Part shown: one piece after another, positions 10,408-45,497 of the stretch
Numbering within the stretch: the stretch's first letter is position 1
Layout: each line of letters starts with the position of its first letter
Source: Microvirga ossetica
GTDB taxonomy: Bacteria > Pseudomonadota > Alphaproteobacteria > Rhizobiales > Beijerinckiaceae
Length of the DNA stretch: 64,000 nucleotides
Direction of reading: 5' to 3'
Assembly: GCF_002741015.1 (NCBI RefSeq)
Contig: NZ_CP016616.1
Coordinates: forward strand, 1 to 64,000
Notes under the pieces: generated by a model
The model's database searches: none
What the model was told of the DNA's origin: nothing
Seen by the model: only the letters and a program-made list of their open reading frames with translations
Made by a program: the position numbers and the translations under genes

Positions 10408-10454
10408 CGCGCGCTTCCGCTGAGGGCCCTTGCGGGCCGATCAAAACGGACGCG

Positions 10455-23715: not shown

Positions 23716-24164
23716 GAGCGGTCCTCCTTCGGGGAGGCCGTGCCCTTCGCGGCGGCCATGTCGCGCTCCAGGCGTTCGATCTCGCGGTTGATCGTCTCGA
23801 GATCCATGTCGTCGATGTTGCCGGTGCTGATGGCGGGCTCGACGGCGGGCTCACGCCAGTTTTTGACGCGCGGTGCGAGCAGCGCCTGGTTGGCTCTCAA
23901 GCTGACGCCGAGGTCGTGCTTCTGAGAGGCGAGCCACAGCATGTTGTTCGAGGCTTCGATCAGGGCGAGGTCGGCTCCGTTGTCGATCTCGTCGCGGTAA
24001 TGCCGCTCCAGATCGGCGCGGGTGAGGCCGAGAATGGCGGCGACGCGGTCGAGGGAGAGGCCGTTGAGCATGCCTAAGACGACGATGCGGCGGGTGTCGG
24101 CGGTCGGCTCGTGCGGATCGCGTCCGTTGCCGCCGGACACGACGGTGAGGGCTCGTCGGGGCAT
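23712..24164 (-). CDS. Phage-type helix-turn-helix protein (small terminase-like)
   Basis: This 150-residue protein carries a clear helix-turn-helix (TADTRRIVVLGMLNGLSLDRVAAILGLTRADLERHYRDEIDNG). A helical region follows (LIEASNNMLWLASQKHDLGVSLRANQALLAPRVKNW) and a charged coiled tail (DLETINREIERLERDMAAAKG). The same layout occurs in small phage proteins annotated as HTH or small terminase-like. I chose ATG at 24164 because AGGAGG lies just upstream; longer in-frame extensions lack this. It is divergent from the SIR2 gene and may define the left edge of the defence cargo. Confidence 0.7.
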   Translation of the reverse strand: MPRRALTVVSGGNGRDPHEPTADTRRIVVLGMLNGLSLDRVAAILGLTRADLERHYRDEIDNGADLALIEASNNMLWLASQKHDLGVSLRANQALLAPRVKNWREPAVEPAISTGNIDDMDLETINREIERLERDMAAAKGTASPKEDRS

Positions 24165-24350
24165 GAACACCTCCTCGGGACGACTGTCGCGATGGGAGCG
24201 AGCATAGCACCGCATCGAGTCGATGGGGGAAAGCTGCCGGAATGGCGTGACACTGTGGATGAGGATGTCCTCGCTCATATCGTCTCACGCGGTTGCGAGT
24301 TAGAACGATGCTCAGCCATCCAGCAAGCCGCAACCTCGATCCGTCCTGAC

Positions 24351-27300
24351 ATGAAATTTTGTTCCAATGGACCAGACGTCCCGGATGAACTCCTCGTCGC
24401 GCGCGATGCTGGCGACGTCATCCTCTTCTGCGGAGCCGGTGTCAGTCAGCAGAACGCAAAACTTCCAAATTTCCCCATGTTGGCGGGCAGGGTCATTCAA
24501 AGCCTGGGCGCGGCACGGGACAGTCGCGCCCGTGCCCTGCTGAAACAGGTGTCGGGCCTCACGCAGATGCCCGACATTGGGGGCATCGTGGCAACCGACC
24601 GGGTGTTTGGGCTGCTTGAGCAGGAGTTCGACGTGTCCGACGTTCGTGCGGCCGTTGCGGAAGCCATCACGCCCGGCTCTGATGCCAAGCTCGATGCCCA
24701 CCGCATTTTGATTGATCTTGCCACGACGCGCAGCGTCACCCGCTTGGTGACGACAAACTTCGATCTCCTGTTTGAGGCTTGCGACCCTGGCCTAGCCAGT
24801 GCCGGGCCGCCAAACCTGCCCGATCCCCACAGTGATCGTGACTTCCATGGCATCGTGCACCTGCATGGCCGCGTCGATGCTAACTACCGGGCCGCGCGGG
24901 ACGAAGAGTTCGTCGTCTCAAGCGCCGACTTCGGCCGGGCCTACCTCTCAGTGGGTTGGGCCACGCGATTCATCCAAAGGCTCCTGTCGCGGTATCAGAT
25001 CCTTTTCGTCGGCTACACAGCAGAGGATCCGCCCGTACAGTACCTCCTTGAGGGGTTGAACCTTAGCGCAGGCACTCGCAACAGGCTCTACGCCTTCCAG
25101 AGCGGCGAGCAACGCTCCGCCGTCGCTCTCTGGGAACATCGGGGCGTTCAGGCCATCCCTTTCGACGCCAGCCAAGACTTCGCGCCACTATGGGATACGC
25201 TCGGAGCCTGGGCAGAGCGGGCACGTGACCCTCGAATGTGGCATGAAACGGTGCTGTCCCGGGCTTCAGCCGGTCCCCAACACCTTACGCCGCATGAACG
25301 CGGGCAAGTCGCCCATTTACTCTCAACCCCTGAAGGGGCTCGCCGTCTGACGACGGCGGCTCATCCGCTCTGCGCGCAATGGATTCTTGTCGCCGATCCG
25401 GCCCAAAGATACGCCAACCCGGAGCGGAGCGGCTCGGAAGATGAAAATCTGACATCCTTCGACCCATTCAATGCTCTTGGCCTCGATAGCGATCCTTCAC
25501 CTCAGCCTGTCGACCCTGAAGTCATCTTTAAGAAGCGAGACGTCCCTTCGGAGGCACTCGACGTTCTGGTGCCGAACCTCCTAGACCGAGAGCAGGGGCT
25601 CCATCGCTTTCGGTACGGGATACGCGGATCTTCCACTCACTTCGACGCGGACCTTCCGCCTCGTTTGCTCGCCCTTGGAACGTGGGTGCGCCAAACAGCG
25701 CACGAACCTGTCGCATTATGGTGGGCCGCCCAGCAGCCTGGGTTACACCCCGCGATCACGCGGGACATCGAATGGCGCTTGCTCCGTGAAGCTCAACGCT
25801 TCCCCGATGCAATCCGGCGCGGATGGCGACTGCTTTTTGCTGCGTGGCGCGATCAACGTGTCGACCCGATGATGCGGTGGTATGACATCGAACAAAGAGG
25901 CGAGCAGGAGGGTTGGACCCACTTTCTCGTCCGTGAACTTGTCCACATGTACCGTCCCAAGCTGATCGTGGGTCCTGCCTCCAGCCTCGCGCATCCTCTT
26001 CTCTGGGCAAGCGAGGGGCTGCCTGATGACGTCATTCACGCCCACATTGACTATCCACGACCGCACAAGGGCGTCTCCGTGCCGGATGAGTTCTTGCCCT
26101 ATGCGGTAGAGTGCTTTCGAGCCAACCTCGATCTTGCGCTTGCACTGGAGCGTGACATCGGCAGCTCCGATTGGGTCTACCTTTCGCCGAGTCGTGGGCC
26201 AGAGGGAAGTTCCGAGACGACGGGCTCGGATTATGGCCTGACAGGTCTCGTTGCCCGTTTTCAGAAACTCGTGACCAACCTCGCGAGCGTAAACCGCGAG
26301 GCGGCTCTCAGTCAGATTCTTTCGTGGCCGACGCAGGACGATTTCGTTTTTGCGCGCTTGCGGATCTGGGCAGCAGGCACCGGACTCCTGAATGCACGCG
26401 AAGCTGGAGCGGTGTTTCTGACACTTTCTGAGCAGGCGTTCTGGGGCTTCGCGCACCAACGTGACCTGCTGTACGCGCTGAAGGATCGCTGGTTGGAACT
26501 TAACCCGGAAGACCGCGCGGCGTTAGAACGCCGACTCCTGACAGGGTCGCGTCCTCGTCCTGAGGACGTTAAAATAAGTGAAGAAGCGAGAACACACGCC
26601 CGGCTGGACCGACTGCACTGGTTGTCGTCCCATGGTGTGACGTTTAGCTTTGACATCAGTGAGACCCTGCGTGCACTCGGCGCGGCCGCCCCGAAATGGA
26701 CGCCCGATAGCGGTGACACGGCGGCCGATTGGCATGAGTCGGAGGTCTACTCGGTTCCGACGGATAGCAGCCCGGGCCCGCTCGTTGAGACTCCAGTGCC
26801 GGACATTCTCCGTCTCGCGAAGGCCCTTGGGGGCTTCGATCTTGCCGCACGAACGGAACGTGATCCGTTTCGCGGCCTCGCTGAGCACAAGCCATCACGT
26901 GCTCTCGGGGCTCTAACACACGCGGCACGGTCTGGCGATGCACCACGATGGGCTTGGTCTGCGTTTCTGCGCACCGAAAGCCGAACCCGTGATCGAGTTC
27001 GGATGATCGGGGCGATTGCGGAACGTCTGATCAGGTTGCCCCCCGACAAGCTTGAGGACATTGCCTATCCGGTTTCCGAATGGATGAAGGCGATTGCGGA
27101 GCGGTTTTTCAGCGATGCGGCAGGTGTGCTTCCGAGTCTATGGGAAAGCTTGATGGCCGCGCTTCGCACCTCCGGTACCGAGCCACGTCTCCGCGATGAT
27201 CGCTCATGGGCAAACGATGCCCTGAGCGCACCGGTTGGAAAACTATATGACTTTCTGGGCAAGGACCCTGTTAAAGACAATCTTGTGGTGGGTGGTGGCC

Positions 27301-28142
27301 TTCCTTGCGACTGGACCCATCGCGTCGAAGACCTTCTTGCTCTGCCGGGAGACATGCGGCGGCACGCACTGGTCATGCTGGCCCACCGATTGGATTGGCT
27401 GTACGTGGTTGATCCCCATTGGACTGCTCAGCATCTGCTCGCGCATGTGGCGGACCAGGGACCCGATGGTGATGCGATATGGGATGGCATCCTTTGGTCA
27501 CCGCGCGTGTCAGGAAGGCTCTATCCCGCCTTGAAAGACATGCTGGTTAAGCGTGCTACGGCTGGACAAACGAGCCGACGCGAGGAGAGCACGGTTCTTG
27601 CCGGGCTGCTCCTGCGCGGTTGGGAGTTGCGAGCCTCATCTGGCGAGCCCCTGGTCAGCGATATTGAGTTGCGCGAGGTCCTGATCCACGCTGATGATCA
27701 GTTCCGCCAGCGGCTCCTCTGGCAACTTGAGCAAGGGTGTTCAGAGCCCAACAGTGATTTGCGAACCAGGGTCGAATCCTTTTTCGCTCATGTCTGGCCC
27801 AAGCAGCGAGCCCTGCGCACGCCAGACATGTCTGGGCACTTGGCTAACTTCGCCCTGGCAAGTGGCGACCTCCTGCCGAGAGTTGTTCGACTGATCCTGC
27901 CTAGGCTCGTGCCCACACGGGATGCGCCGCTCCGGTTGCACCTGGAGGATCTCGAGCCGGACGGGCATCCTGCCATCGCGCATCCGTCCGCGACGCTCGA
28001 TCTGCTGTGGGCTGTGCTCGGTGAGGACACGGCGGCATGGCCAAACCGCATCGAGCCGGTCCTGGATGTCCTGGCGCAGACCCCGGAAACCGCATCCGAT
28101 GCGAGATTGTCCGAACTCCGGCGACGCCTTGATATGTCCTAA
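24351..28142 (+). CDS. SIR2-domain antiphage protein, DSR1-like
   Basis: This 1,263-residue protein begins with a SIR2-type NADase domain (about residues 5-260). It has GAGVS at 28-32, TTNFD at 134-138 with catalytic Asn136, and HLHG at 170-173 with the candidate catalytic His at 170 or 172. The DSADF-like and FVGYTAEDPPVQYLL segments are also there. About 1,000 helix-rich residues follow (DUF4020-like), presumably the phage-sensing part. Defence-associated sirtuins DSR1 and DSR2 deplete NAD+ on infection and have this architecture; size and C-terminus favour DSR1. ATG at 24351 lacks a strong ribosome-binding site, so the start is uncertain. It stands alone on the plus strand. Confidence 0.8.
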   Translation: MKFCSNGPDVPDELLVARDAGDVILFCGAGVSQQNAKLPNFPMLAGRVIQSLGAARDSRARALLKQVSGLTQMPDIGGIVATDRVFGLLEQEFDVSDVRAAVAEAITPGSDAKLDAHRILIDLATTRSVTRLVTTNFDLLFEACDPGLASAGPPNLPDPHSDRDFHGIVHLHGRVDANYRAARDEEFVVSSADFGRAYLSVGWATRFIQRLLSRYQILFVGYTAEDPPVQYLLEGLNLSAGTRNRLYAFQSGEQRSAVALWEHRGVQAIPFDASQDFAPLWDTLGAWAERARDPRMWHETVLSRASAGPQHLTPHERGQVAHLLSTPEGARRLTTAAHPLCAQWILVADPAQRYANPERSGSEDENLTSFDPFNALGLDSDPSPQPVDPEVIFKKRDVPSEALDVLVPNLLDREQGLHRFRYGIRGSSTHFDADLPPRLLALGTWVRQTAHEPVALWWAAQQPGLHPAITRDIEWRLLREAQRFPDAIRRGWRLLFAAWRDQRVDPMMRWYDIEQRGEQEGWTHFLVRELVHMYRPKLIVGPASSLAHPLLWASEGLPDDVIHAHIDYPRPHKGVSVPDEFLPYAVECFRANLDLALALERDIGSSDWVYLSPSRGPEGSSETTGSDYGLTGLVARFQKLVTNLASVNREAALSQILSWPTQDDFVFARLRIWAAGTGLLNAREAGAVFLTLSEQAFWGFAHQRDLLYALKDRWLELNPEDRAALERRLLTGSRPRPEDVKISEEARTHARLDRLHWLSSHGVTFSFDISETLRALGAAAPKWTPDSGDTAADWHESEVYSVPTDSSPGPLVETPVPDILRLAKALGGFDLAARTERDPFRGLAEHKPSRALGALTHAARSGDAPRWAWSAFLRTESRTRDRVRMIGAIAERLIRLPPDKLEDIAYPVSEWMKAIAERFFSDAAGVLPSLWESLMAALRTSGTEPRLRDDRSWANDALSAPVGKLYDFLGKDPVKDNLVVGGGLPCDWTHRVEDLLALPGDMRRHALVMLAHRLDWLYVVDPHWTAQHLLAHVADQGPDGDAIWDGILWSPRVSGRLYPALKDMLVKRATAGQTSRREESTVLAGLLLRGWELRASSGEPLVSDIELREVLIHADDQFRQRLLWQLEQGCSEPNSDLRTRVESFFAHVWPKQRALRTPDMSGHLANFALASGDLLPRVVRLILPRLVPTRDAPLRLHLEDLEPDGHPAIAHPSATLDLLWAVLGEDTAAWPNRIEPVLDVLAQTPETASDARLSELRRRLDMS

Positions 28143-28357: not shown

Positions 28358-28834
28358 CTAGCTCCGCTCTAGCTGCAGCCACCGTCCGATTACCTCCAGT
28401 TCCCGTTCATGACTGCTTCTCAGGAAATGACTGCAGCGTGCTGTGACGTCTTCAATTGGAAGGCGGGCGGGTCCTCTAAGGGCGCACTCCCAAACTGTCA
28501 GCACCCTCCAGCCGTCGGCAATCAGGCGCGTTGAGATGAGTTGATCTCGTGCCCGATTGCGGGAAATCTTGGCTTCCCAGAATTCGGTTCGGGTGGCTGG
28601 CAGCTTAAACATCGGACAGTTATGTCCGTGCCAGAAGCAGCCATGCACAAAAGCGACGGCCCGGTACTTGGGAAAAGCTAAGTCTGGCCGACCCGCCAGA
28701 TGCTGCGGATGTAACCTGAAGCGCAAGCCTGCGGCGTGCAGTGTGCGACGGAGCAGTAGTTCCGGTTTGGTGTTCCGGCTGCGGATCCGGCTCATGTTGT
28801 GCCGACGCTGCTCGGGATTTAATACATCTGCCAT
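28358..28834 (-). CDS. vsr: Very short patch repair endonuclease Vsr
   Basis: This 158-residue nuclease nicks DNA at T:G mismatches made by deamination of 5-methylcytosine. Residues corresponding to the E. coli active site are at the same numbers: E25 (TKPELLLRR), D51 (GRPDLAFP), H64 and H69 (FVHGCFWHGHNCP), with the zinc-binding cysteines. It is the last gene of the minus-strand methyltransferase-McrB-McrC-Vsr operon, 7 bases after the McrC-like gene. Pairing with an m5C methyltransferase fits its role in repairing mutations caused by that enzyme. Confidence 0.95.
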   Translation of the reverse strand: MADVLNPEQRRHNMSRIRSRNTKPELLLRRTLHAAGLRFRLHPQHLAGRPDLAFPKYRAVAFVHGCFWHGHNCPMFKLPATRTEFWEAKISRNRARDQLISTRLIADGWRVLTVWECALRGPARLPIEDVTARCSHFLRSSHERELEVIGRWLQLERS

Positions 28835-28841
28835 TCAGATT

Positions 28842-30506
28842 TCAGATAGGACCTGCAGTAGCATCATCAACCACCCTTCGCAGCGCGGCGGCAATCTCTA
28901 TGATGGAGGCACCAGGCCGGAGCGTCACCGCTCCGAAGCGAAACCCTTTCCGGTATTCTGGGTGAAAGAGGCGGCTAGGCATCTGGGTCCTTCTGTAGTC
29001 AGAGCCGAGTACCGGCAGATATGGCGCGAGGAGATACGCTGCGGTGACGATGCCCTTAACGTCGCCGGTTGCAGCCTCCTGCACAAGTGCGTCACGATAC
29101 GTATGGATCGAACTAAGAGCGTCGTTAAGACCTTCATCGATCCTATACTTCGCATCCAGCACAATGAGCTGGCCGGTATGTTCTGCTGCGGTCGACTCAG
29201 AGATTACAACGACATCGGGTGTCATAGACCGACTAAATGACCCCTGGGCATCAGGCTCCTTCCAGAATTCACGATACTGTTTCTGGAAGCAGAGTTTCCA
29301 GCCTCTGCCGATGGATACAGTAACTGCACCGGTTGCAAGTGTAAGCCCGCCAGCTGCATCAGCGATGAAAAGATTGCTGGTTTCCAGACTCGAGGGTCCG
29401 AACTCGTGTGTGCCAGCTCGTACTAAGCGCAGAAAACACCACAACTCGTAAAGTTCATATGTCCTTGCCAGCGGCACACGCAGGAAGTCACCGAATACCG
29501 CAGCAATGCCAAGATTCATGTCCTGCCATACCCGATAAAAGCGTCGATAGTTGGGGTCATGACGGAATACGGCGGATAGCATGAGATGAGCCGGTGCATC
29601 CCCTGCCTCTGCGAACGGAGCTGCAGTCGCAATGCGGCTGATGCGGCGAGCCAAACGTCGGCATCGCGCTGCCCATGCCACTGCAATCTGGCGCTGATCC
29701 ACTTCTCCGCCCGTCAGTTCCCGTTCGAGTGTATCTGCAGCCGCATTCAGCCAACTCGCCCAGTACCTGAGACACGCCCCCATCTGCCGGTGCTCTGCTA
29801 GGTCAAGCGAATTGAGCCTCTGCCTGATACGGATTTGCGCTGGCAGAAAGCCGCGCAATGCTGCAGGAAGCCGTGACGGCTTGGCGCTCTCCGCCAGCGG
29901 GCGACCTGAACGGAAGGACCGAAGTACCTCCAATCCCGTAGCCCGCTGTGCCCGGTGATATGGCAGCGCGACTTCCTCTGCCGATAATCTGCGCCGCGGA
30001 TTGCGGACAATTGCAGTGACTATTTCCTCTAGTTCTTCAATCCGCGAACGTAAGAACTCGAGCCTTGCGATTGCAGGCGGTTTTGCGCTCGCTCCGCGTG
30101 CCACGGCAGTCCGAAAGCTACTAAGTGAAAAGAGCGCAAAGGTATCATCGAGAATCTCGCGCACCATAGAATCAAAGTCGTCCCGCGTGAGCTTGCGCCG
30201 ATCTGGATCGGTGATGATCTCGAAACGGCGGGGGGAACTACCCGGGATGCGCAGTTCTGCATCGACTACTCCAGCATGAAACCCGGGCGACCAGCGCCAG
30301 AGTGCCATGTCCGGTCCAGGAGCACGTAATGCCTCGATGGCCAGATCATCGATGAGGAGGTCGGTATTTACAGCTTCCGGACTGCCACTCAGCTCAAAAT
30401 GGTAGCTGCCTTTCTCATGGATTGCTCCCGGAGGAATCGAATCCGGATCCGGCCAGACCCGCCACCTCGAGCGTGTAGTCTCATCAGCGATATGCAGCGC
30501 CAGCAT
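28842..30506 (-). CDS. McrC-like nuclease subunit (DUF2357 / PD-(D/E)XK)
   Basis: This 554-residue protein has an N-terminal DUF2357-like beta-rich region, a long helical middle and a C-terminal PD-(D/E)XK nuclease. The nuclease motifs are TPDVVVIS and QLIVLDAKYRID around residues 430-460. It begins 9 bases after the McrB-like gene. In McrBC and in the R2 subunit of LlaJI-type systems such a protein is the DNA-cutting partner of an AAA+ NTPase. Its acidic and lysine catalytic residues look intact, so it is probably active. The m5C methyltransferase in the same operon suggests a restriction enzyme that cuts DNA lacking the protective methylation rather than a stand-alone type IV enzyme. Confidence 0.82.
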   Translation of the reverse strand: MLALHIADETTRSRWRVWPDPDSIPPGAIHEKGSYHFELSGSPEAVNTDLLIDDLAIEALRAPGPDMALWRWSPGFHAGVVDAELRIPGSSPRRFEIITDPDRRKLTRDDFDSMVREILDDTFALFSLSSFRTAVARGASAKPPAIARLEFLRSRIEELEEIVTAIVRNPRRRLSAEEVALPYHRAQRATGLEVLRSFRSGRPLAESAKPSRLPAALRGFLPAQIRIRQRLNSLDLAEHRQMGACLRYWASWLNAAADTLERELTGGEVDQRQIAVAWAARCRRLARRISRIATAAPFAEAGDAPAHLMLSAVFRHDPNYRRFYRVWQDMNLGIAAVFGDFLRVPLARTYELYELWCFLRLVRAGTHEFGPSSLETSNLFIADAAGGLTLATGAVTVSIGRGWKLCFQKQYREFWKEPDAQGSFSRSMTPDVVVISESTAAEHTGQLIVLDAKYRIDEGLNDALSSIHTYRDALVQEAATGDVKGIVTAAYLLAPYLPVLGSDYRRTQMPSRLFHPEYRKGFRFGAVTLRPGASIIEIAAALRRVVDDATAGPI

Positions 30507-30515
30507 CGGCCAGCC

Positions 30516-32171
30516 TCAGCGGCTTGCCTGGAATGAGCCGAACTCGTCCAGATCAACCAGCAGCTTCGTGAGAAAACTCTGAGACTTCGGAAGCGAAGTG
30601 AATGCCTTGATCAACCCGGTAAGGAGCCGACGCTGCTTCTCCGCTCCGCGCAGTTTGGTCAGAACCTTCTGTACCATCAAATCGTCCACGGTCCCCGTCG
30701 GATCCGCCTTCAGATGCTCTGCAGCGAATGCGTGGTAGCGGACGACCTCCTCAGCGACGCGGTATCCGAACCCAAGGCTGTGAGGAGCCATTATGTCCTG
30801 CGCTATCTGAAGAAAACCCTCGCACGCGGCGCGGGCGTCCTTCAGCTGGGGCTCACGGGCTTCAAGCGTTGACATGAAACCCGCCAGATCTACAGCCGAC
30901 ATATCAATCACGATGGCCCGGTCTAGCACCTTGTCACTTACGGCATTTGTCGTTTCATCGATATTGATAGTGCCTATGACATAGAGGTTATCGGGTATTC
31001 TCAATTCTGCGGGGATATTTGTTCCCTTAGATCCTTCGAGCGGAACGCCGTTGGTGTGCAGTTGGAGCGCCTCTTGAGTTTCGATTGCGGACAGCACGTC
31101 GGAGAAATAGTACTCGACGCGTGCCAGGTTCATCTCGTCCAGCACGACGAATACGGGAGAGTCCTTATGTGCAGTCGCAAGGAGCACAGCCTCTAAGAAG
31201 GGCGGCACAACATACCGGTTCGAGAGAACATCGTAGTAGCCGGTCAACCCGGTTGGGTCGGTCCATTCAGGCCGGACAGGACATACAAACAGGAATGGGT
31301 TGGGGTTCCGCAGCTTAACGCCGTGGACCGCACGAGCATACTTCAACGCCAACTGTGTTTTGCCAGTACCAGACAACCCAGCCAGGATCACAAAATGCTT
31401 ATGCGGAAGAAAGTTGAGTGCTGCATGGAAGCGGCGGACTTCGCCGCCAGGATAGTGGCCCTCAAGAGCGGCAACCGCCGCTTCGATGTCTGCAACGGGA
31501 ATGGATGATGGCATTCGGCGCATTTCTGCGCTTACCTCACCAGCATCGTCCCAGACGCGGATTTCGTGGACCTTCTCTCGGCCGATGAGGTTGCCTAGAT
31601 AGCCCACGAACTGCCGGGCCAGCAGGCTCCGGTGCACTGACGCTCCTGGCGGCCAGATTGCGAAGTGTATCGAATCAATCTTCGCCAAGCAGCTTGGATC
31701 AAGCTCACCTTTGTGGCGCGCCGCCGTCAGTGACTCTTTGAAGTCGTAGTTATGAAAGTATAGCTCCCCCGTATCCGTGATGTAGAATTTTACGTTATTA
31801 CTAATGCTCCCTGGCTTCTTCGAGGCTGCAATGAGAGTCGCATTCCGCGCTTGTCCTTCATGAAACAGCTTCAGCAATCCGCTGTTTAAGGTTCCGATAT
31901 CCTCTTTCACTGAGATGGCGAAATAGACCTCGTCGTGAGGCGGAAAAGTCAGCACACAAAGCAGAACCATCTGCTGGAGCGGAGTGGCTGTACCAGCAGC
32001 TATTTTCTCCGAATGACTCTCGAGATTGTTAGTGCAGGCAAACAGACCTCCCTCCAGAATACGGGCGCTGTTCGAAAAGCCGAAATTGCTCGCAATCCGT
32101 GCGCTTGTTTCTGTTCCCGGTAGACCCCTGATCGCCTTTTCAAACTGTTGCTGGCGTTCTGCTGCCGACAT
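30516..32171 (-). CDS. McrB-like AAA+ NTPase of restriction system
   Basis: This 551-residue protein has a DNA-binding-type N-terminal region (about 1-240) and an AAA+ core. Walker A is GLSGTGKT with K271, Walker B VFVVLDEMNLARVE with DE at 345-346, and the McrB-like signature is YVIGTINIDETTNAVSDKVLDRA. McrB-type motors use GTP or ATP to translocate DNA and activate the nuclease. The start at MSAAERQQQ is preceded by AAGGAAG, and the frame overlaps the end of the methyltransferase gene by 32 bases. The longer in-frame extension lies entirely within that gene and was rejected. Confidence 0.85.
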   Translation of the reverse strand: MSAAERQQQFEKAIRGLPGTETSARIASNFGFSNSARILEGGLFACTNNLESHSEKIAAGTATPLQQMVLLCVLTFPPHDEVYFAISVKEDIGTLNSGLLKLFHEGQARNATLIAASKKPGSISNNVKFYITDTGELYFHNYDFKESLTAARHKGELDPSCLAKIDSIHFAIWPPGASVHRSLLARQFVGYLGNLIGREKVHEIRVWDDAGEVSAEMRRMPSSIPVADIEAAVAALEGHYPGGEVRRFHAALNFLPHKHFVILAGLSGTGKTQLALKYARAVHGVKLRNPNPFLFVCPVRPEWTDPTGLTGYYDVLSNRYVVPPFLEAVLLATAHKDSPVFVVLDEMNLARVEYYFSDVLSAIETQEALQLHTNGVPLEGSKGTNIPAELRIPDNLYVIGTINIDETTNAVSDKVLDRAIVIDMSAVDLAGFMSTLEAREPQLKDARAACEGFLQIAQDIMAPHSLGFGYRVAEEVVRYHAFAAEHLKADPTGTVDDLMVQKVLTKLRGAEKQRRLLTGLIKAFTSLPKSQSFLTKLLVDLDEFGSFQASR

Positions 32172-33639
32172 GCTCTTCCTTCGCCTTTGCACCCTTGAGG
32201 GTCTTAAATATCTCGGACGCCAAGGCCCTTGCCAGGAGCGGAGGAACGGCATTTCCGATCTGCCGGAACGCTGGATTCATCGTTCCGCTGAACACAAAAC
32301 CATCGGGAAAGGATTGCAGCCTTGCAGCCTCGCGTACTGAAATCGTCCGGGCCTGTTCACTGTCGTAATGGATGTGGCTGTAACTGTCCTTGCCGAGGTG
32401 CGCCATGAGTGTTCTCGCTGGCTGATCTCTCCACATCTTACGCCATTTGTTTGGGAATTTTGATGCATCGTAAGGAGGAACAATCGAGTCCTTCAGGCGC
32501 TCGTATTCCGAAGAGCCTTCCCGAACCCTTTTGCCTTGTTCGCGCAGTTCGGAAATCCGCTCGGCCAGCATAGCCATGGCGTGCCGATGGGCCTCCGGAT
32601 ACTGATCCCCCGGATTGAGACGCGCGAAAAGTTCGTAGTCCCGGGGCAGATAGCGGATCACGTGGTCCCGCAGTCCTTCGACTGGCGCCTCGAACCCAGG
32701 CCAGGAGCGCATTTGCCGGGCATATTCCGACACTTTCCGACGGTTATCATAGGGTATCGGCTGGTCCATACGTCGTGCGCCGCGCTTCAGGATGCCTGAT
32801 GCGAGCTGCTTCCGAGCATAGATCGGGGGGAGATCACCAATAGCCTGTTCAGCAGTTATGGCTGAGGGAAGGTCCGGACCCGAGGCTGGCGGTTCAATAT
32901 AGTCATGCGCGGCTCCGAAGAGGCCATTAAGTACTTTCAAGGCAACTGCGCGCGATCCGTCATAGCCAGCAGGAAGGGTCATCCAATGTGACGGAGACGG
33001 GAATGAAACGGAGGCCGCGACTTCTCGGCGGTAGCCGATCAAGAACATTCTCTCTCGCATCTGCGGCACGCCATAATAGGAGGCGTTCAGGAGGGTGTAT
33101 CCGCAAACGTAGCCCTTTGCCTCGAGAACCTCGCAGATTTCCTCGGCGATGTTCTGGCCGCCATGGTTGAGAACATCTGGAACATTCTCCATCAGCACGA
33201 CGAGTGGCTGAAATGCTGCAACGTATCTAAGATATTCCTGATAGAGCCGTGCGCGAGGATCATGCCGAAACGCCTGAGGGTGTGAATCAATCTCGCGGAG
33301 CTTTGGACGGCCGACACGGGCAAACGCTTGGCACGGTGGGCCACCGACAATTACATCGAACGCGTCGTCGACAGGTCCCAGGTCTAGCTCTGCCACCAAG
33401 TCTTCAGGGTGCGTGGCAATAATGTCACGAGACCTGCTATGGCGGGCGTCATCTGGATGGAAATTCAGTCCATGGGACCGAGCTGCATCAGGATCCAGCT
33501 CTAGAGCTGCCCTGATTGCAAATCCAGCTGCCTTGAAGCCAAGGGACAGCCCGCCACACCCTGCGAACAGGTCAAGGACACGCGGCTTCTCACCGGCACG
33601 AATTCGCGCAAGCTTCTGATGAACGGCGTCACTCGTCAT
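32140..33639 (-). CDS. DNA (cytosine-5)-methyltransferase
   Basis: This 499-residue C5-methyltransferase has the ordered motifs: I FAGCGGLSLGF (from residue 25), IV GGPPCQAF with catalytic C103, VI ENVPDVL, VIII MRERMFLIGYR, then a variable target-recognition region, and IX-X REAARLQSFPDGFVF and RQIGNAVPPLLARAL. It would protect host sites from the downstream McrBC-like enzyme. Being first in the operon makes sense for safe establishment of a restriction system. The recognition sequence cannot be read from the protein. Bacteriophage or Dcm-orphan roles are less likely given the nuclease genes. Confidence 0.95.
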   Translation of the reverse strand: MTSDAVHQKLARIRAGEKPRVLDLFAGCGGLSLGFKAAGFAIRAALELDPDAARSHGLNFHPDDARHSRSRDIIATHPEDLVAELDLGPVDDAFDVIVGGPPCQAFARVGRPKLREIDSHPQAFRHDPRARLYQEYLRYVAAFQPLVVLMENVPDVLNHGGQNIAEEICEVLEAKGYVCGYTLLNASYYGVPQMRERMFLIGYRREVAASVSFPSPSHWMTLPAGYDGSRAVALKVLNGLFGAAHDYIEPPASGPDLPSAITAEQAIGDLPPIYARKQLASGILKRGARRMDQPIPYDNRRKVSEYARQMRSWPGFEAPVEGLRDHVIRYLPRDYELFARLNPGDQYPEAHRHAMAMLAERISELREQGKRVREGSSEYERLKDSIVPPYDASKFPNKWRKMWRDQPARTLMAHLGKDSYSHIHYDSEQARTISVREAARLQSFPDGFVFSGTMNPAFRQIGNAVPPLLARALASEIFKTLKGAKAKEEHVGSRTPATV

Positions 33640-34014
33640 GCTCGACTAGTTCCTATTTCCGCTGAGCAACACGAAACTGGCCCAGACAGGTTAACGATCC
33701 GGCATGAATCGAAAAACGCTGGCCCTGCCAAAGCTTGCGCCCCGAAATACGTTGTTGCTCCAACGCATGGTCCGTGACCTGCAATCTGAGTATCCTGTTA
33801 CAGAGATGGCCGGTCGATCCCTTCCTGGCTGCACAAGCTACAGCATATGGCACCAGCCCGGGCCGCGCGCCAGCCAGCTCTGAGTTTGATCCCCAACTCT
33901 TCAAATCCTGTCTCACGGGCTCGGTGTGCAGACTTGCGGGGAGTGCTGAAAAATGGTCTGGCTGTAAATGAGGTGCGCCTCCCATTGTTCGTGATCATCT
34001 CAAGGCTTTTGTAA
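33640..34014. other. Divergent intergenic region, restriction operon / GAF gene
   Basis: About 375 bases between the divergent methyltransferase and GAF-protein genes, so it must hold both promoters. No supported coding frame and no clear inverted repeat were found. AT content rises towards 34000, in line with the AT-rich start of the next gene. Confidence 0.45.
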
Positions 34015-34920
34015 ATGACTGTATCGTTGGTCGATGTGCAGAACTCTATCAAGTCATTGATCCGACAGAATAGAATTAACTCACTCATTTATTCACTTCT
34101 CATTCCTGTAATTGTCGGCGTCTATTGCACGTTTTATGACAAGCTTGTGGCTGTTCATCCCCTTCTGTTTTGGGGACCTGTATTGATGTTCGTTCTATTT
34201 GCTCTGGTCACAGCCTATTATACTTATGATGTAAAACTTGCTCCTGAGATATATCTGGAGATGGAAGACGCATATGATCGGATTGAGAAGCTGGAGGGGA
34301 ATACCCGTTTCTTGAATGTTCTTCAGGAGCAATCCCTCTCATGGGGCATTATCGTTCGCAATCATATTCATGATCAGACAAGAACCCCTGAATATCTTAA
34401 GGAAACAATCAGGGAGATCCTTTCGCTCATCGTCGAGGATCGGGAGCGTTTGTTTGATTTTGATGCCAGCGAACTCTGGAGCTTCTCCGTCTATGTTTAC
34501 GATACGAGGGATGGCCTGCTGCATCCGATATGGCGGGACAAGCATCGCAAACATCCTTCAAGTGGGCCTGGGCGCCTATGGGCGCCCGGTCGCGGCCACG
34601 TCGGCATTGCATTTGCTCAGTGCGTGCCGAAGATATGCCCGGATGCATATGCACCCGGGGTTTGGGAAATGTTCAATTCGGCAGATCAGGCGGAGCCTCA
34701 TGATTCGAGGGCGTATGCCTCCTTTGTATCTGAACCGATTGGGCCAGTCGGCGGGAAATCCCACCCTTATGGCGTCTTGGTTGCTACAAGCGATACGGTA
34801 GGACGGTTTGACATAGCCTCAGCCCTAGCCCTGCGGCACGCCGCGAGTGCAATTGCAACGCTTATATATCTAGCGTACGATCAATCAGACCTCGAGAAAG
34901 TGTGCGATCTTGCAAACTGA
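34015..34920 (+). CDS. Unrecognised 2TM-coiled-coil-GAF membrane protein
   Basis: This 301-residue protein has two transmembrane segments near residues 22-40 (INSLIYSLLIPVIVGVYC) and 48-68 (LLFWGPVLMFVLFALVTAYY). A helical stretch follows (MEDAYDRIEKLEGNTRFLNVL). A C-terminal domain from about residue 145 has GAF-like sequence: RGHVGIAFAQ, GKSHPYGVLVATSD and GRFDIASALALRHAAS. GAF domains bind small ligands, so a membrane sensor is plausible. No enzymatic domain is seen. The first third is distinctly AT-richer than the neighbouring genes, a sign of recent transfer. It lies 46 bases before a small gene with which it probably forms an operon. I know no defence system with this pairing. Confidence 0.7.
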   Translation: MTVSLVDVQNSIKSLIRQNRINSLIYSLLIPVIVGVYCTFYDKLVAVHPLLFWGPVLMFVLFALVTAYYTYDVKLAPEIYLEMEDAYDRIEKLEGNTRFLNVLQEQSLSWGIIVRNHIHDQTRTPEYLKETIREILSLIVEDRERLFDFDASELWSFSVYVYDTRDGLLHPIWRDKHRKHPSSGPGRLWAPGRGHVGIAFAQCVPKICPDAYAPGVWEMFNSADQAEPHDSRAYASFVSEPIGPVGGKSHPYGVLVATSDTVGRFDIASALALRHAASAIATLIYLAYDQSDLEKVCDLAN

Positions 34921-34965
34921 AACGAGGCTGACGCGTTCGGCTCAGAAAGGCCTGCAGGAGTAATT

Positions 34966-35178
34966 ATGACTGCACCGATCTCAAAAGGACCTGTTCAAAC
35001 CTATAGCCGTAAAGCTGAAAGGCTCAGTGAACGCGTTGCAAAGCCAGAAAGCGACCCAAAGCTGTTGGATGAGCTTGTAACGGCAGTGAGGGCCCAGGCT
35101 GATGAAATCTCCGAGTATATGATCAAGAAGTCCAGTTCCGGCCGGACACCTTTACGGAAGACGCGGAGGTTTGGGTAA
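34966..35178 (+). CDS. Small hydrophilic partner protein (70 aa)
   Basis: This 70-residue charged protein (SRKAERLSERVAKPESDPKLLDELVTAVRAQADEI...) is probably one long helix with a basic tail (RTPLRKTRRFG) and no membrane segment. GCAGGAG lies 6 bases before the ATG. It follows the 2TM-GAF gene on the same strand after 46 bases. No family is recognised. It could be the cytoplasmic output or inhibitor of the GAF protein, but this is inferred from position only. Confidence 0.65.
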   Translation: MTAPISKGPVQTYSRKAERLSERVAKPESDPKLLDELVTAVRAQADEISEYMIKKSSSGRTPLRKTRRFG

Positions 35179-35363: not shown

Positions 35364-36605
35364 CTATTGGAATGCGATCTTTTCAAGCTGCTTCAGCCGT
35401 AGTTCATAGGTGGACGAAATGCAGTCCGCGTCATCCTCACATGCGTTCCGCATGCGGTACCAATTCCGCTGGCTCGTCCTTGTCTTGTCAGCGACGGACT
35501 TGGGCGCGGTCTTCAGGATATGTGAGTAGAGAGCTGACATGGCCAGATCGCTGGCGGACAGCTCCTGCCTCCGGCAGACGGCGTTCTCGGCCACGGTCGA
35601 TGCCTTCCGGCAGTCGAAGGAAGGTGACCGGACGACTGTTCTCCCCGTCTCGGCCACTTTTCGCACGGCCTCGACACAGCTTGCGAGAAGTCCGCTACGG
35701 TCCCTCAGGTTGCCGACCGCCTCCATCTCGTAGGAGAGGAGGCGCCCGAAATTCTCCCCTCCGAAGGCATCGTGCCCTTCCTTGAAGGTCTGCTCCCCGA
35801 GGGACTTCATCTCTGCGGCGTCGAGGCCGAACAGGTTGGAGCAGGTCGCGGACAGCTCGATGTAGCCCGCCCCGAGCCTGACCATGGCATCGAGAGTGGG
35901 CTTCGAGCTTGGCGGGGTGACGGTCGTGCCGTCCTGCTCGAAGATGTCGATGCCAAGCTCGCGTGCCTTATTCGGGGTCAGTAGCGAGAACCCCTCCGGA
36001 GGCGACTGCGTGATGAACATGATCGCCTCGCGACGAAGCCCGAGATGCGTGAGGTAGGATCCAATGTCGGCGTTTCCCATGCCGGTCTCGCGGAGCTGGC
36101 CGTTCTCACGGATGTACGCCGCGTGGAACCCGATGGTGGATCGCGGCGACATGTAGCGTCGGTTCGCGGATATCCAGATCAGCGCACAGGCTGAGTAGCA
36201 CTCCTGATCGGGCAGGACCACGGTTGCGAAATTCCGTTGCCGGATCTGTACGCCCATGTCCAGGGCGTCCTTGACGAGGCCCCCGGGTGACATGAGAACG
36301 ATACTGGCCTTGGGACGCGAGAGCCCACCTAGTATCTCTGCGAACCGATCCGCATCCCCACTCCGGATCGGCCCTTTCACAAAAACCATGCTCACATCAA
36401 TCCCGGAGGGACTGAAGACGTCGAACTCGGCAGATCGGGCCGTGCAGATTCCTACCATGAGCACGACCATTGCAGTCGATAGGCTTAGCCAGACGTGCGA
36501 GAAAAAGCTCAATTTCGCGGCGATTCGGGTCGTCAGCGGCAGTTCTTGTGTCCCCGGCGCGTCCCCACTCCGTCCTATGGTCGGGTGGATACCTAGAACC
36601 TGCAT
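35364..36605 (-). CDS. Exported ClpP-like protein with LprI-like C-terminus
   Basis: This 413-residue protein has an uncleaved or long signal region ending near ARSAEF (residue 60). A ClpP-like/COG3904-type domain follows, with S138 (QECYSACALIW) as the likely nucleophile and H151 (STIGFHAAY) as base; the SPGGLVKDAL strand is typical. The last 85 residues match the DUF1311/LprI lysozyme-inhibitor fold with its cysteine pattern (FDCRKAS, AVCRRQELSA, ACEDDADC). The combined protease-like and lysozyme-inhibitor-like layout suggests a periplasmic envelope-protection role. It is the last gene before the right end of the island. The N-terminal start is uncertain. Confidence 0.7.
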   Translation of the reverse strand: MQVLGIHPTIGRSGDAPGTQELPLTTRIAAKLSFFSHVWLSLSTAMVVLMVGICTARSAEFDVFSPSGIDVSMVFVKGPIRSGDADRFAEILGGLSRPKASIVLMSPGGLVKDALDMGVQIRQRNFATVVLPDQECYSACALIWISANRRYMSPRSTIGFHAAYIRENGQLRETGMGNADIGSYLTHLGLRREAIMFITQSPPEGFSLLTPNKARELGIDIFEQDGTTVTPPSSKPTLDAMVRLGAGYIELSATCSNLFGLDAAEMKSLGEQTFKEGHDAFGGENFGRLLSYEMEAVGNLRDRSGLLASCVEAVRKVAETGRTVVRSPSFDCRKASTVAENAVCRRQELSASDLAMSALYSHILKTAPKSVADKTRTSQRNWYRMRNACEDDADCISSTYELRLKQLEKIAFQ

Positions 36606-36995: not shown

Positions 36996-39900
36996 TTACG
37001 ACCACTGCACCCGCGAGGCATCCGCCTGGAAGTCGTCGAGAGGCTGGATGTGATCCGCAGCAGGCTGGTCGAGATCCGGTACCGGATGCGCCCCGGACGC
37101 AGCAGCATCTCCGGCATCCACCTGCTCCGTCCAGGCAGCACCCGCGCCGTGGCTCGGATCGGTCGCGCCATCCGCCATGAGCAGAAGAATATCCGAACCG
37201 GCCAGGTCCTGAATCGTCCCGGAAGCCCCCATTGGAGCCGCCAAGCCCGAGGCATGAGCGACATCGTCCACGACGACGTCGACACTCCTCTCAAGCGAAG
37301 CCGCCCCCTCGCTGTCGACCAGCACCACGCCGATGCTGCGGCTGCCGGCTGCGAGGCCTGACGCGTCGCTGCTCTCGAGCACGAGGGCTTCGAGCACCGA
37401 CGCGTAGATTTCGGGAGTCGCATGCCCGCTCAGCGTCAGCGTTCCTGTCCCGGCGGCGTATCCGCCGCCCACGATCTCGATTCCGGTATCGCCGATCATC
37501 GTGCGCCCGTTGTCCTCATGAAGGACGAAGCCTTCGACATCGAGGCGGTCGCCGGGCTGCGCTCCGGAGAGCGTGATGGTCGCCCCGCCGAGATGCGAGC
37601 TGTCGATATCTTCGGCAGCGGCGCCGCCGATGGCCTGCGCGTGGTGCGTGCCGGCTTCGACGTGGTTGGGCGATGCGAGCGCCAGTTCCGGTGCATCGTT
37701 CACGGCCTCGGCAGTCACGGAGAACGGCGTGGTCGTCGTCGCCGTTTGGCCTGCGGCTTCCTTGCTCGTGGCCTGAAGCGTCAGATTCAGTGTCCCGTTC
37801 CAATCCTGCGGCGGCATGAGCTGGAGGCCGGACAGGCTGGCGGCCGGCACCGTCCATGTGCCGCCTCCGACAGCCGTACCATGCGAGAGCATGAAGCCGT
37901 CGGGCACGCCGAGGATGCTGACCGTCAGAGTCTCTGAGCCGACGGTATCGACGAGAGAGGCTGAAAGGTTCAGCGCAACGGCGTGATCCTCAAGCCCTGC
38001 CGCGTCTCCCGCCACCGTTGTGGGCGCGTCGGCAACAGCCGACACGCTGACTGTATGTGTGCCGGTAATCTCGCGACTCACACTCGTGCCGTTGCCGGTA
38101 TCGGTGATCGTCGCCTTCAGGGTCAGCGTGAAATCCGCATCGCTGTTCTCAGCCGGCCGGAGCGTCACGAGCCCGGCGCGCAGATCGGCGGTCGCCACCT
38201 GCCACAGGCCCGGGCTGAGTTCCGTTCCGAGATTGAGGCTGGCCCCCTGCGGCAGTCCCGAGACCTGGGTGAAGTCCGACCAGGTCTCCGAGCCATCCGT
38301 ATCCAGAAGGGTGAAGGTCGGCTTGAGGAGGATGGACGTATCCTCGGCTCCAGCGCTCGCGCCGGCGATCGTGCCTGAATCCGCCACCGGATCGAGGCTG
38401 ACCGTGAAGTCTACCGATGTCCGGGCGGTCGATCCCCCTGCACTCTCGGCGGCGATGCCGGTGAGCGTGAGCGTGAACGAGCCCGAGGCCTGCGCAGGCG
38501 GAATGAAGGTCACTCCGCTGAGCTGCGCCGGCGTGAGCAGCCAGGAGCCGTCGGCCTGCTTGGTTCCGGCGCTGAGGCTCGCACCGGCCGGTAACCCGCT
38601 GAGCACGAAGCTGAGACTTTCCGAACCGTCGGTGTCGATCAGGGCGCCCCCGAGGCCAGTGAGCCTGATGGACGTGTCTTCGCGTCCCGAAAAATTCACC
38701 ACGGTCACGGAGGGCGCATCGGCAACGGCATCGACGTGCACGCGGAAGGTCGCCTCGCTCGTGGCCGTCTCACTATTCGTCTCACGGCTTGTGGCGCGAA
38801 GGGTCAGGCTGAAGGAGCCAGAGAAGTTCTGCGGCGGCGTCACGGAAAGGCTCGGCAGATCCGATGGCGATACGAGCCAGCTTCCGTCCGGCTGGCGCGT
38901 GCCGTGCGAGAGCGAGGCGCCCGCGGGCATTCCCGAGATCACCACGGACAATGTCTCCGAACCGTCCCGGTCGGTCAGGACAGCGGACAGGTTCAGGCCG
39001 ATCGGCTCGTCCTCGCGGCCCGCTGCATCGCGGGCGCTCACCACGGGAGCATCGGCCGTCGCATCCGCGTGGACTTCGAATGTTTCCCTCGTGGTTTTTA
39101 CCGAACCGTTCGAGGTCTCGCGGGAATGCGCCAGCATGGTCAGGGCCATGGTGCCGCTCCAATCGGCGGGCGGCGTCACGGTCAGGCCCGCGAGCTGCGA
39201 GGGTGTCAGAGTCCAGCTGCCATCGCCATTGTTGAGGCCAGCGGAGAGACGTGCACCTTCCGGCAGGCCTTCGATCACCACCGACAGGACTTCGGACCCG
39301 TCGGCATCGGTCAGCGACGCCGAGAGGTTGAGAGCGATTTTTCCGTCTTCGTTGCCCGTCGCGTCATGGACGGTGACGATCGGTGCATCGGCGCTCGGCG
39401 CGACGGAGATAGCGATCGTCCGGCTCGTCGCAAGCGTGTCGCCGTTACTCGCCTCGCGCGTCGTCGCCTCGATCGTCAGCGAATAGGTGCCGTACTTGTT
39501 TGCGGGCGGAACGAATTGCAGGCTTCCCAGATGGGCGGGATCGACCGACCAGCGCCCGTTGCCGAGATCGGTGATGCCGTCACCTTCGAGGCGTGAGCCT
39601 GCCGGGAGCCCGGATATCACCACGGCCGCAACCGACTCGCTGCCATCCTTGTCGCTCACCCCGACGGTGAGATTCAGTAGGACCGCCACATCCTCGACGC
39701 CGGCAGGCGGAGCGGCAGAGATGACGGCACTGTCGGCCACCGCGGACACGGTGACGTTGAGATCGGATGTGGTGGTCGTCTCGCTGGCCGTGGCTTCCGT
39801 CGACACGGCTGTCACACGCAGAGTGATCGTGCCGGAGAAGTCCGCCGGGGGAACGAGGCTGACATGCGCCAGCTGATCCGGCCGCAGCACCCAGGTGCCG

Positions 39901-42900
39901 TTGAGAGGATCCCTCACGCCGACCGAGAGGCTTGCACCGGCAGGAACGCCTTCGATGCGGATGCCGAGCGTCTCGCGGCCGTTATCCGTGTCGGATGTTC
40001 CGGCCGCGATGGACAATTGCACCGAGCGGTCCTCGACCGTCCCTGAATCGGCGACAACGAGCGTCGGCGTCTGGGCAATCGGCGCGCCGCCCGGAACCGT
40101 GCCCGATCCGTCGCCCTCGCCTCCATTTCCGCCGCCCGAAGGCGTCGTGACGGTCACCGTCACCTCTTCTGTGCGATGCGACTGGTCGCCCTCGCGTTCC
40201 ACGGCAACCGCCGTGATCTTCAGATCGAAGCTGCCGCTGTAGCCCGCAGGCGGGCGGATCGAGAGATCGGGGAGCGCTTCGACAGGGACCAGCCAGACGC
40301 CATCGCCGGCCGGAATGCCGGCCGAGAGAACCGCGCCGGCCGGCACGTCGCGCACCCACATGTACAAGCTCTCGGAGCCGTCCGTATCGCCCGGCGTCGC
40401 CGTGATGTGAAGCGGGATCAGTCCGTCGTCGGGATCGATGCTGTTGTGACCGGCGCCGGTCGATTCCGTGAGCGTGAGCACCGGAGTGTCGGCGTCCCCC
40501 GCCGGATCCACCACCATATGGCCGCCGATGGGCGTCCGGATTCCGCCCGTGTCCTCGATGGTCATTTCGACGGTGAGCGTCGCAGCCCGGTCGCTGTCAT
40601 GCGGCATGGTCAGCGTCACGCCCGTCATCTGCGTGGCGGGAATCCGGTAGATGCCGTTCGCATCGGCTGCGAGAATCGTGCCGTCCGCAAGTTTCAGGAC
40701 CGCGCCGTTAGGCACGTTGCCGATGAGGATGTCGCCGACGACTTTTTCCGAATTGTCGCTGTCGCCGAGGCCGGGATCGAGGCGCAGCGCGATGGGCTGG
40801 TCCTCGGTTCCTCCGATGGTGCCCCAGTTGCCCGAGTGTCCGTCGAGGCCGCCGACGGCGGGAGTGTCGACCACCGCCACGACATTGACCGGGAACAGCA
40901 CCGGCGTCTTCGCCTGATCGCCGCCATCCGCCTCCTGCGTGACCGCGGTCACGCGCAGCTCGATGGTGCCGGAAAAGTTGGGCGGCGGAAGCAATGTCGC
41001 CTGCCTCGCTTCCTCAGCGGTCAGGGACCAGATGCCTGGTCCGCGATACGTCCCGTGAGACAGAACCGCGCCTTCCGGGATGCCGGAGATGACGAAGCTC
41101 AAGGTCTCCGAGCCGTCCGCGTCCGGCAGAGTTGCGGTAAGGTTGAGCGCGATCGGAGTGTCCTCGAATCCGGTCGCGCCCGTGACATCCATGACAGGCG
41201 CATCGGCCACGGCGCGCACCGTCACCCGAAGATCGAGCGGCTGGCGCTCGGCCGTGCTGCCGTTGGGCTCCGCGGAAATGGCGGAGACCTTCAGGGTGAA
41301 GTCCTTGTCGGAATGCGCAGGCGGCGTGATGGTGAGGCCGTTCACCTGCGCCGGGTCCACCAGCACGGAGCCATCGGCTGCGCGGACGAGAACCACGCTT
41401 CCGGCGCGCACCACCGCTCCGTCCGGAATACCGGCGATCCTGAAGCCGACGATTTTCTCCGAGCCGTCGCGATCGGTCGTCCAGGCTGCCATGTTCAGCG
41501 GGATCGCCGTATCCTCGTCTCCCACGGAATGGTTGACGCGGAGCCCAGGAGCGTCGGCGACGGCCTCGGCCTTCACCTGGAAGGACAATTCGGTACTGGC
41601 CTTGCTGCCGTTCGAACTTTCGGTCGCGGTGGCGCGGATTTTCAGGTCCAGCGTTCCGGAGAAATCGACCGGTGGCTTGAGAGACAGCTGCGGCAGATCT
41701 TCGGTCCGCACGAGCCAGGAGCCGTCCGACTGAAGAGTTCCGCGGGTCAGGGTCGCATCCGCCGGCACCCCATAGATCCTGACGGCCAGCGTTTCCGATC
41801 CATCCCTGTCGACCAGAGATGCGGAAAGATTGAGCGGGATTTCAGTATCCTCGTTCCCCGAGACGCTGACGGCGGTCACGCTCGGCGCATCGGCCACGGC
41901 GTTGACCGTCACCCGGCTCGTCCCGGTCACTTCGCCGCTCACGGTCTTCCCGTTGCCGGTGTCCTGCAGGGTTGCGGTGAAGGTAAGGGTGAAATCCTCG
42001 TCGCTGTGCGCCGGCGGCTTGATCTTGACCTGCCCGGTCCGCAGGTCCCCGGTCGGAACGCTCCAAACTCCCGGCTCCACCATCGTGCCTCGATTGAGCG
42101 TCGCGCCGGAGGGCACGCCGGATACCCGCGTGAATTCGGACCAGGTCTCCGAGTTGTCTTTGTCGGGCGTGTCGAAGGTCGGGCTGATCGTGATCCAGCT
42201 GTCTTCGTTGCCGGCGGCCGAACCGGTGATGGTCCCCGCATCGAGCACGGGATCGAGATTCACCGTGAACGTGGTCGCATTGCGCGCACTCGGCACGCCG
42301 GCCTCGCTCTCGGTCGCGACGGCCGTCAGCGTCAGCTCGAACCGGCCCGACCCGTGCGGCGGCGGCGTGAGCACCAATCCGGTCAGCTGCGCCGATGTCA
42401 GCAGCCAGCTGCCGTCCGCCTGTTTGATGCCGGCATTGAGCGTTGCGCCGGGAGGCACGGTCAGCAGGAAGCTCAGGCTCTCCGAGCCGTCGATGTCGCG
42501 CAGGGCGCCACCCAGACCCGTGAGGGCGACAGGCTCGTCCTCGCGGCCTGAGAAGTTGGCCACCGTCACGTCGGGCGTATCCGCGACCGCGCCGACCTGG
42601 ACGCGGAAGTCGGCCCTGCTCGTCTCGGCGTCGCCGTTGCTCTCCCTGGCGGTCGCTTCGATGCGCAGATCGAGAGGCCCGGAAAAATCGTGCGCAGGCG
42701 TCAGTTTCAGATGAGCAAGATCGGACGGCGACACGCGCCAGCTGCCGTCCGGCTGACGGGTTCCATGCGACAGGGAGACGTCCGACGGCACGCCGAAGAT
42801 GCTGACGGACAGAAGCTCCGAGCCGTCCTGATCCTTCAGGGCTGCCGAGAGATCGAGGGCGATGGCGGTATCTTCCGATCCCCTGACGTCGTGCACTACC

Positions 42901-45485: not shown

Positions 45486-45497
45486 GGGCTGGGATCC

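Follow-up and report, generated by a model that had tools for sequence, protein, structure and literature searches.

What do a membrane protein with a GAF domain and a 70-residue protein do together when they are encoded side by side in a stretch of Microvirga ossetica DNA (contig NZ_CP016616.1, positions 1 to 64,000; this whole 64-kb stretch is called the window here)? Gene 1 (34015..34920, forward strand) encodes a 301-amino-acid (aa) protein predicted to consist of two transmembrane (TM) segments, a long helix and a GAF domain, and gene 2 (34966..35178, forward strand) encodes its small, basic, helical partner. We argue below that the pair forms a toxin-antitoxin-like module that probably acts in abortive infection, a reading to which we assign a probability of about 0.5.

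Whether the two genes belong together was examined at the window and at 11 other loci with a relative of gene 1. One of these, L012, has a GAF gene interrupted by an IS4/5-type transposase and was left out of the partner count, as were P0008 and P0009, two close homologues from the window's own clade, named Methylobacterium/Methylorubrum. A same-strand open reading frame (ORF) of 61 to 79 aa lies behind the GAF gene in all 11 intact loci (the window and 10 others), with a start that ranges from 41 nt upstream to 76 nt downstream of the GAF stop codon; no intact GAF gene without a partner was found among them. The identical test, with limits set after the loci had been seen and with crude ORF calls, was positive for 18 of 130 other ORFs of at least 200 aa in the same DNA. 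When overlap with another ORF of more than 100 aa was disallowed, 9 of 11 loci were positive versus 7 of 130 controls. Because it recurs in every intact locus, the two-gene layout was confirmed to exceed chance. The arrangement of two adjacent, codirectional genes with a small partner, a layout feature of type II toxin-antitoxin systems, is thus present in all 11. An all-versus-all comparison of 722 ORFs of at least 80 aa around 11 loci revealed nothing common to three or more loci apart from the GAF gene and a single ORF antisense to that gene.

Evidence at the level of individual clades pointed the same way. The small genes of one clade (L020 to L023 and L032) gave ratios of nonsynonymous to synonymous differences (pN/pS) of 0.15 to 0.48 over 10 pairs, and four GAF genes of that clade gave 0.20 to 0.42 over 6 pairs; the small gene, like the GAF gene, is under purifying selection. 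In one genus, both genes occurred in the same 2 of 10 genomes and neither in the remaining 8, both positive genomes being sources of the small-protein profile. A profile of the L020 to L023 partners, searched in 397 genomes, recovered all four of its sources, G990 as the one new genome, and three weak matches (L029 to L031; expectation value [E] 0.003 to 0.009), which were dropped as chance. The G990 locus (L032, 9622-10000) retains a whole small gene, directly preceded by a GAF gene cut to about its last 55 residues' worth and 62% identical to the L022 protein over 47 residues. Remnant and small gene sit behind a truncated tyrosine integrase. The GAF gene and the small gene almost certainly constitute one conserved unit.

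The architecture of gene 1 was predicted by hydropathy and AlphaFold. Two membrane segments were found by hydropathy at approximately residues 21 to 47 and 43 to 70, and at the same cut-off both were present in 22 of 29 relatives; they are placed here at about residues 21 to 41 (34075..34137) and 44 to 70 (34144..34224). The AlphaFold model contains helices at residues 5 to 39, in agreement with the first membrane segment, and 49 to 119, followed by a GAF fold; residues 71 to 119 (34225..34371) form a coiled-coil-like stalk, and the GAF domain spans residues 121 to 300 (34375..34914). Pfam GAF_2 matched the window's protein at an E of 4e-4, below the family cut-off, and the distant relative L005 above it. 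The predicted fold places gene 1 in the GAF-domain superfamily, the comparison with solved structures covering mostly residues 93 to 292. Residues Y160, L169, R187, W189, G192, G194, H195, G197, D210, D230, Y234 and G253 of the GAF domain were invariant in 30 sequences, and no invariant or nearly invariant column of the 27-sequence family alignment contained cysteine. Soluble GAF sensors and free methionine-R-sulfoxide reductases (5hl6, 3mmh and 3ksg) matched over the GAF part only. Unlike those reductases, the family lacks conserved catalytic cysteines, and since no cysteine is invariant, reductase chemistry is unlikely. A possible weak ribosome site, AAGG, precedes the gene at 34002..34005.

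The partner begins close behind. Gene 1 ends with its stop at 34920 and the gene 2 ATG lies at 34966, leaving a 45-nt gap that includes an AGGAG ribosome site (34956..34960). The two genes share a reading frame, in which one TGA is the only stop between them, the 45 nt behind it being open (34918-34965). Reading the pair as one protein through the TGA was rejected: locus coordinates put the frames in register in the window only, and the in-frame arrangement was taken as a coincidence because the other loci do not share it. The gene 2 product has a net charge of +6 and two predicted helices (residues 11 to 24 and 31 to 58; pLDDT about 77 to 84, from folding inside a fused model with gene 1 and without aligned relatives). 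A protein search found no homologue of it among 5.8 billion proteins, and its relatives were therefore located by position. Pfam gave no match for it at E up to 1, nor for the L023 partner at E up to 0.1. An earlier interpretation made from the letters alone (the sequence-only reading) had described a same-strand unit of a protein with two TM segments, a coiled coil and a GAF-like domain plus a small basic helical protein, with AT-rich base use. The ORFs lie where it placed them, the domains are predicted as it described, and the G+C contents of 49.2% (gene 1) and 51.2% (gene 2) versus 63.6% for the window agree with it, the surrounding island (28 to 36 kb) being itself low in G+C; its spacing of 46 bases holds as close spacing and is corrected to 45 nt.

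The distribution of the family was then considered. Fourteen other proteins, 40 to 62% identical to gene 1, were returned by protein search, and a profile search of 7,997 scored candidates added at least eight homologues, one of just 216 aa. The GAF gene was found in at least 1 of 61 close relatives (the window's genome itself), 1 of 199 genomes of the order, 5 of 397 of the family, 3 of 385 of the class and 3 of 398 of the phylum, these being lower bounds from overlapping sets that include the window's own genome; in genus g28, whose set does not include it, scoring of first-look candidates per genome gave 0 of 111. A profile scan of named genomes yielded three loci, in Neorhizobium huautlense, Pseudomonas palmensis and Bradyrhizobium sp. 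Tv2a-2, and a single-sequence scan of genome contigs yielded no GAF relative. Viral contigs contained no relative by sequence, and phages searched at E up to 10 gave just two weak matches, both to one single-stranded RNA phage. Occurrence is patchy.

The genomic settings show that the pair is a mobile two-gene module. In G988 (L022) it fills 9198-10614, starting from the 3' end of a tRNA-Pro. Five sister genomes matched the upstream flank fully or nearly so, and four of them also hold the downstream flank, at flank-to-flank distances of 15, 45, 95 and 609 nt versus about 1.4 kb in L022; in the fifth (L036) a match was obtained for the upstream flank alone, and four additional genomes with fragmentary matches were left out of the comparison. 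The L013 pair sits between mutS-like and glnD-like genes (by eye), which are directly adjacent in the related L014 genome, where the pair lies elsewhere. Both loci have a common mutS-glnD-murJ-trpS-like order (by eye), with the pair at differing spots in or near it. Other copies lie 94 nt behind a tRNA-Arg (L021), about 350 nt behind a tRNA-Ser (the L012 GAF gene) and behind an apparent tRNA 3' end (L005, by eye). Phage genes are found near three more: tail-collar and endolysin genes at 3 to 5 kb (L003), portal and terminase genes at 3 to 6 kb (L023), and Zot, a weak Rep match and the integrase of an inovirus-like element at 5 to 9 kb (L011). At L011 (9297-19000) the inovirus-like prophage lies beside a selB-like host gene (by eye), with the GAF pair at the prophage edge. 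L004 has a SIR2 gene (PDC-S65), DUF4062, a weak TIR-like match and a methyltransferase fragment within 6 kb. As raw counts, uncompared with the rate of such neighbours for arbitrary genes, the settings of 13 loci are 2 clear defence islands, 4 phage or integrase, 4 tRNA ends and 3 plain. The sequence-only reading had looked to homologues near defence genes for support and to homologues that are always housekeeping genes for its refutation. Partner co-occurrence was complete (11 of 11) and clear defence islands were few (2 of 13); the patchy distribution in prophages and tRNA-end cassettes speaks against housekeeping.

For the function of the pair, the closest guide is toxFtsLD9 of Gelidibacter mesophilus (NetFlax), the only GAF membrane toxin that our open-licence full-text searches found. 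According to the available part of its report (PMC10440598), it is a 281-aa protein with a membrane-bound FtsL-like helix and a GAF domain that in E. coli stops colony formation and causes filamentation and later culture collapse, not via partial depolarisation, and it is neutralised by the Panacea-domain antitoxin PanA. As far as that source goes, both gene products are membrane proteins of about 280 to 300 aa with a TM part, a helical stalk and a GAF domain (predicted here), and both have a partner gene alongside. The partners differ: PanA carries a Panacea domain, and the window's is a 60-80-aa two-helix protein lacking a Pfam match. Pfam contains a Panacea model, and no Panacea-domain antitoxin was found beside the GAF gene in the Pfam searches described above (window partner at E up to 1, L023 partner at E up to 0.1). 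Because toxFtsLD9, a TM-helix-GAF protein, is a proven toxin, analogy favours the GAF protein as the effector and the small protein as its inhibitor. The sequence-only reading had proposed a membrane-located sensor with unknown output; the membrane location and GAF domain are retained as predictions, and the role shifts to an effector with a small inhibitor.

A working mechanism can be sketched on this basis. Comparison of loci shows that the GAF gene and the 60-80-aa gene are the whole unit and travel together. The harmful effector would be the 2TM-stalk-GAF protein, present in the inner membrane as a dimer or a larger complex, and the two-helix protein would bind it and keep it off. Infection might free the effector through a ligand in the conserved GAF pocket; alternatively, a phage protein, or loss of a short-lived partner once host expression stops, could do so. 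By analogy with toxFtsLD9, the freed protein would upset cell division or the envelope, and growth would halt before phage release. The asymmetry at G990 is the trace expected if the GAF protein does harm and its partner is protective and itself harmless.

The only viral protein that a structure search matched at E below 0.001 was gp43 of the temperate Gordonia phage Finkle, described in PMC9476905 as far as that source was available (Foldseek E 1.2e-5, probability 1.00, TM-scores 0.51/0.59). Like the window's pair, gp43-gp44 (L033 10622-11590; ON456347 30621-31589) comprises a 2TM-helix-GAF-like protein followed, 36 nt behind, by a 58-aa basic ORF, here beside an integrase; the two are annotated just as membrane protein and hypothetical protein. 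Unlike the window's family, gp43 lacks the GHVG motif (by eye).

Several observations weigh against the toxin-antitoxin reading. Toxicity, neutralisation and phage protection by the pair are all predicted. The small partner lies downstream of the GAF gene, and many classical antitoxins lie upstream. The likeness to toxFtsLD9 is one of architecture, and phage defence is not among the results in the available part of its report (PMC10440598). The G990 asymmetry comes from a single locus, and three of the 13 loci (L013, L014 and L020) have no mobile or defence gene nearby; their neighbours, judged mostly by eye, are ordinary genes, among which a class-III aminotransferase was identified. No relative was found by sequence in plasmid or phage records. 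The gp43 sequence match was not significant (2.4 bits; shuffles up to 4.4), and since sequence does not support homology, the Finkle likeness may be convergence. Finally, the L020 to L023 partner profile misses the window's own small gene, whose score was reached by 68 of 500 shuffles. Scores of the L005, L013 and L014 partners were reached by just 3 to 4 of 500 shuffles, and those of L003, L004 and L011 by 229, 236 and 382, respectively; L004 and L011 are strongly alike in pairwise comparison. The window partner's best pair, with L023, was reached by 1 of 300 shuffles and was one of 66 pairs tried. The small partners are so variable that homology across all loci stays unproven, and because the window, L003, L004 and L011 scores do not beat shuffles, a shared two-helix hairpin is suggested, not proven.

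Of the other explanations, the one that fares best, though we consider it unlikely, is a membrane exclusion or sensor system like lambda RexAB or CarolAnn 43/44. Each protein would then be non-toxic by itself, the small one would act as sensor or activator, and the pair would open or depolarise the membrane in response to a phage product. The prophage neighbourhoods and the Finkle look-alike beside an integrase fit this explanation, and so does precedent: in the available part of PMC6426606, CarolAnn 43/44 is a two-gene prophage defence with neither gene toxic alone, and CarolAnn 43/44, Sbash 31/30 and RexAB share with the window's pair the form of a two-gene, prophage-carried unit with one membrane protein. 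The CarolAnn-type partners described there are a 4-TM protein and a protein of about 370 aa with a weak DUF4747 match, for CarolAnn and Sbash alike, with no GAF domain mentioned in that part. Neither type was found here: the window's pair has two hydrophobic segments, no 4-TM protein and no DUF4747 match (Pfam, E up to 1). Moreover, in the available account toxFtsLD9, a demonstrated TM-GAF toxin with a comparable architecture, needs no second protein for its toxicity.

It is improbable that the pair is instead a nucleotide-activated membrane effector, comparable to the membrane effectors of CBASS, Pycsar or CARF-type systems. In that case a cyclic or modified nucleotide produced once infection has begun would bind in the GAF pocket and thereby open the membrane helices. 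No CBASS-, Pycsar- or Thoeris-type cyclase or TIR gene was found in the unit, no gene besides the GAF gene being common to at least three of the 11 loci, and the pair has no PADLOC match; the messenger would therefore need to come from the host. Slightly less probable again is a selfish module for addiction or island maintenance that plays no part against phages. The evidence for mobility fits it equally well, as does patchy occurrence such as 2 of 10 genomes in one genus. Addiction modules are common on plasmids, and none of these pairs was found on plasmids; two loci are in defence islands. Given the patchy (1 of 61 and 5 of 397, lower bounds), mobile distribution and the partner in all 11 intact loci, it is very improbable that gene 1 encodes an ordinary GAF protein of signalling or redox function next to an unrelated gene.

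The toxin-antitoxin reading can be taken one step further, to a more tentative proposal. Few ligand-sensing domains are as common as GAF. The pair may represent an undescribed two-gene anti-phage family in which the membrane GAF protein is both sensor and executioner: when its GAF domain binds a ligand or phage protein, it would be freed from the two-helix partner, which evolves fast, and the stalk would then kill or arrest the cell. Such a family would include proteobacterial members and, judged by fold, a temperate phage of actinobacteria. If so, bacterial immunity would gain a sensing principle from a compact, mobile pair in which a GAF domain is coupled to a membrane effector. In agreement with the sequence-only reading, which knew of no defence system with this pairing, PADLOC 2023 gave no match to the window's pair, the L020 GAF protein or the L023 partner, and open-licence full-text searches found no description of a membrane GAF protein with a small helical partner. 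The whole unit, missed by that library, is a cassette of about 1.4 kb and can be cloned and tested entire.

The neighbours of the window's pair, identified by Pfam and PADLOC searches, are the SIR2 and restriction genes that the sequence-only reading had named. A SIR2 protein of up to 1343 aa (24111-28142) matches Dsr1 over residues 81 to 394 (E 1e-101) and as a whole scores far below the Dsr1 cut-off (341 versus 1400 bits); it may be related to Dsr1 and differ from it in the C-terminal part. A single minus-strand run (28358-33639) encodes Vsr, DUF2357/PDDEXK_7, a McrB-like AAA protein (PDC-M26A) and a C5 methyltransferase and resembles a restriction unit of the McrBC type that brings its own methyltransferase. 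Adjoining the module on its other side, a 413-aa protein (35364-36605, minus strand) contains a ClpP/NfeD-like serine protease region and a weak LprI-like C terminus, both below the Pfam cut-off. Beyond it, the minus strand at 36996-50820 encodes a 2829-aa repeat protein followed by genes that, by eye, resemble a type I secretion set.
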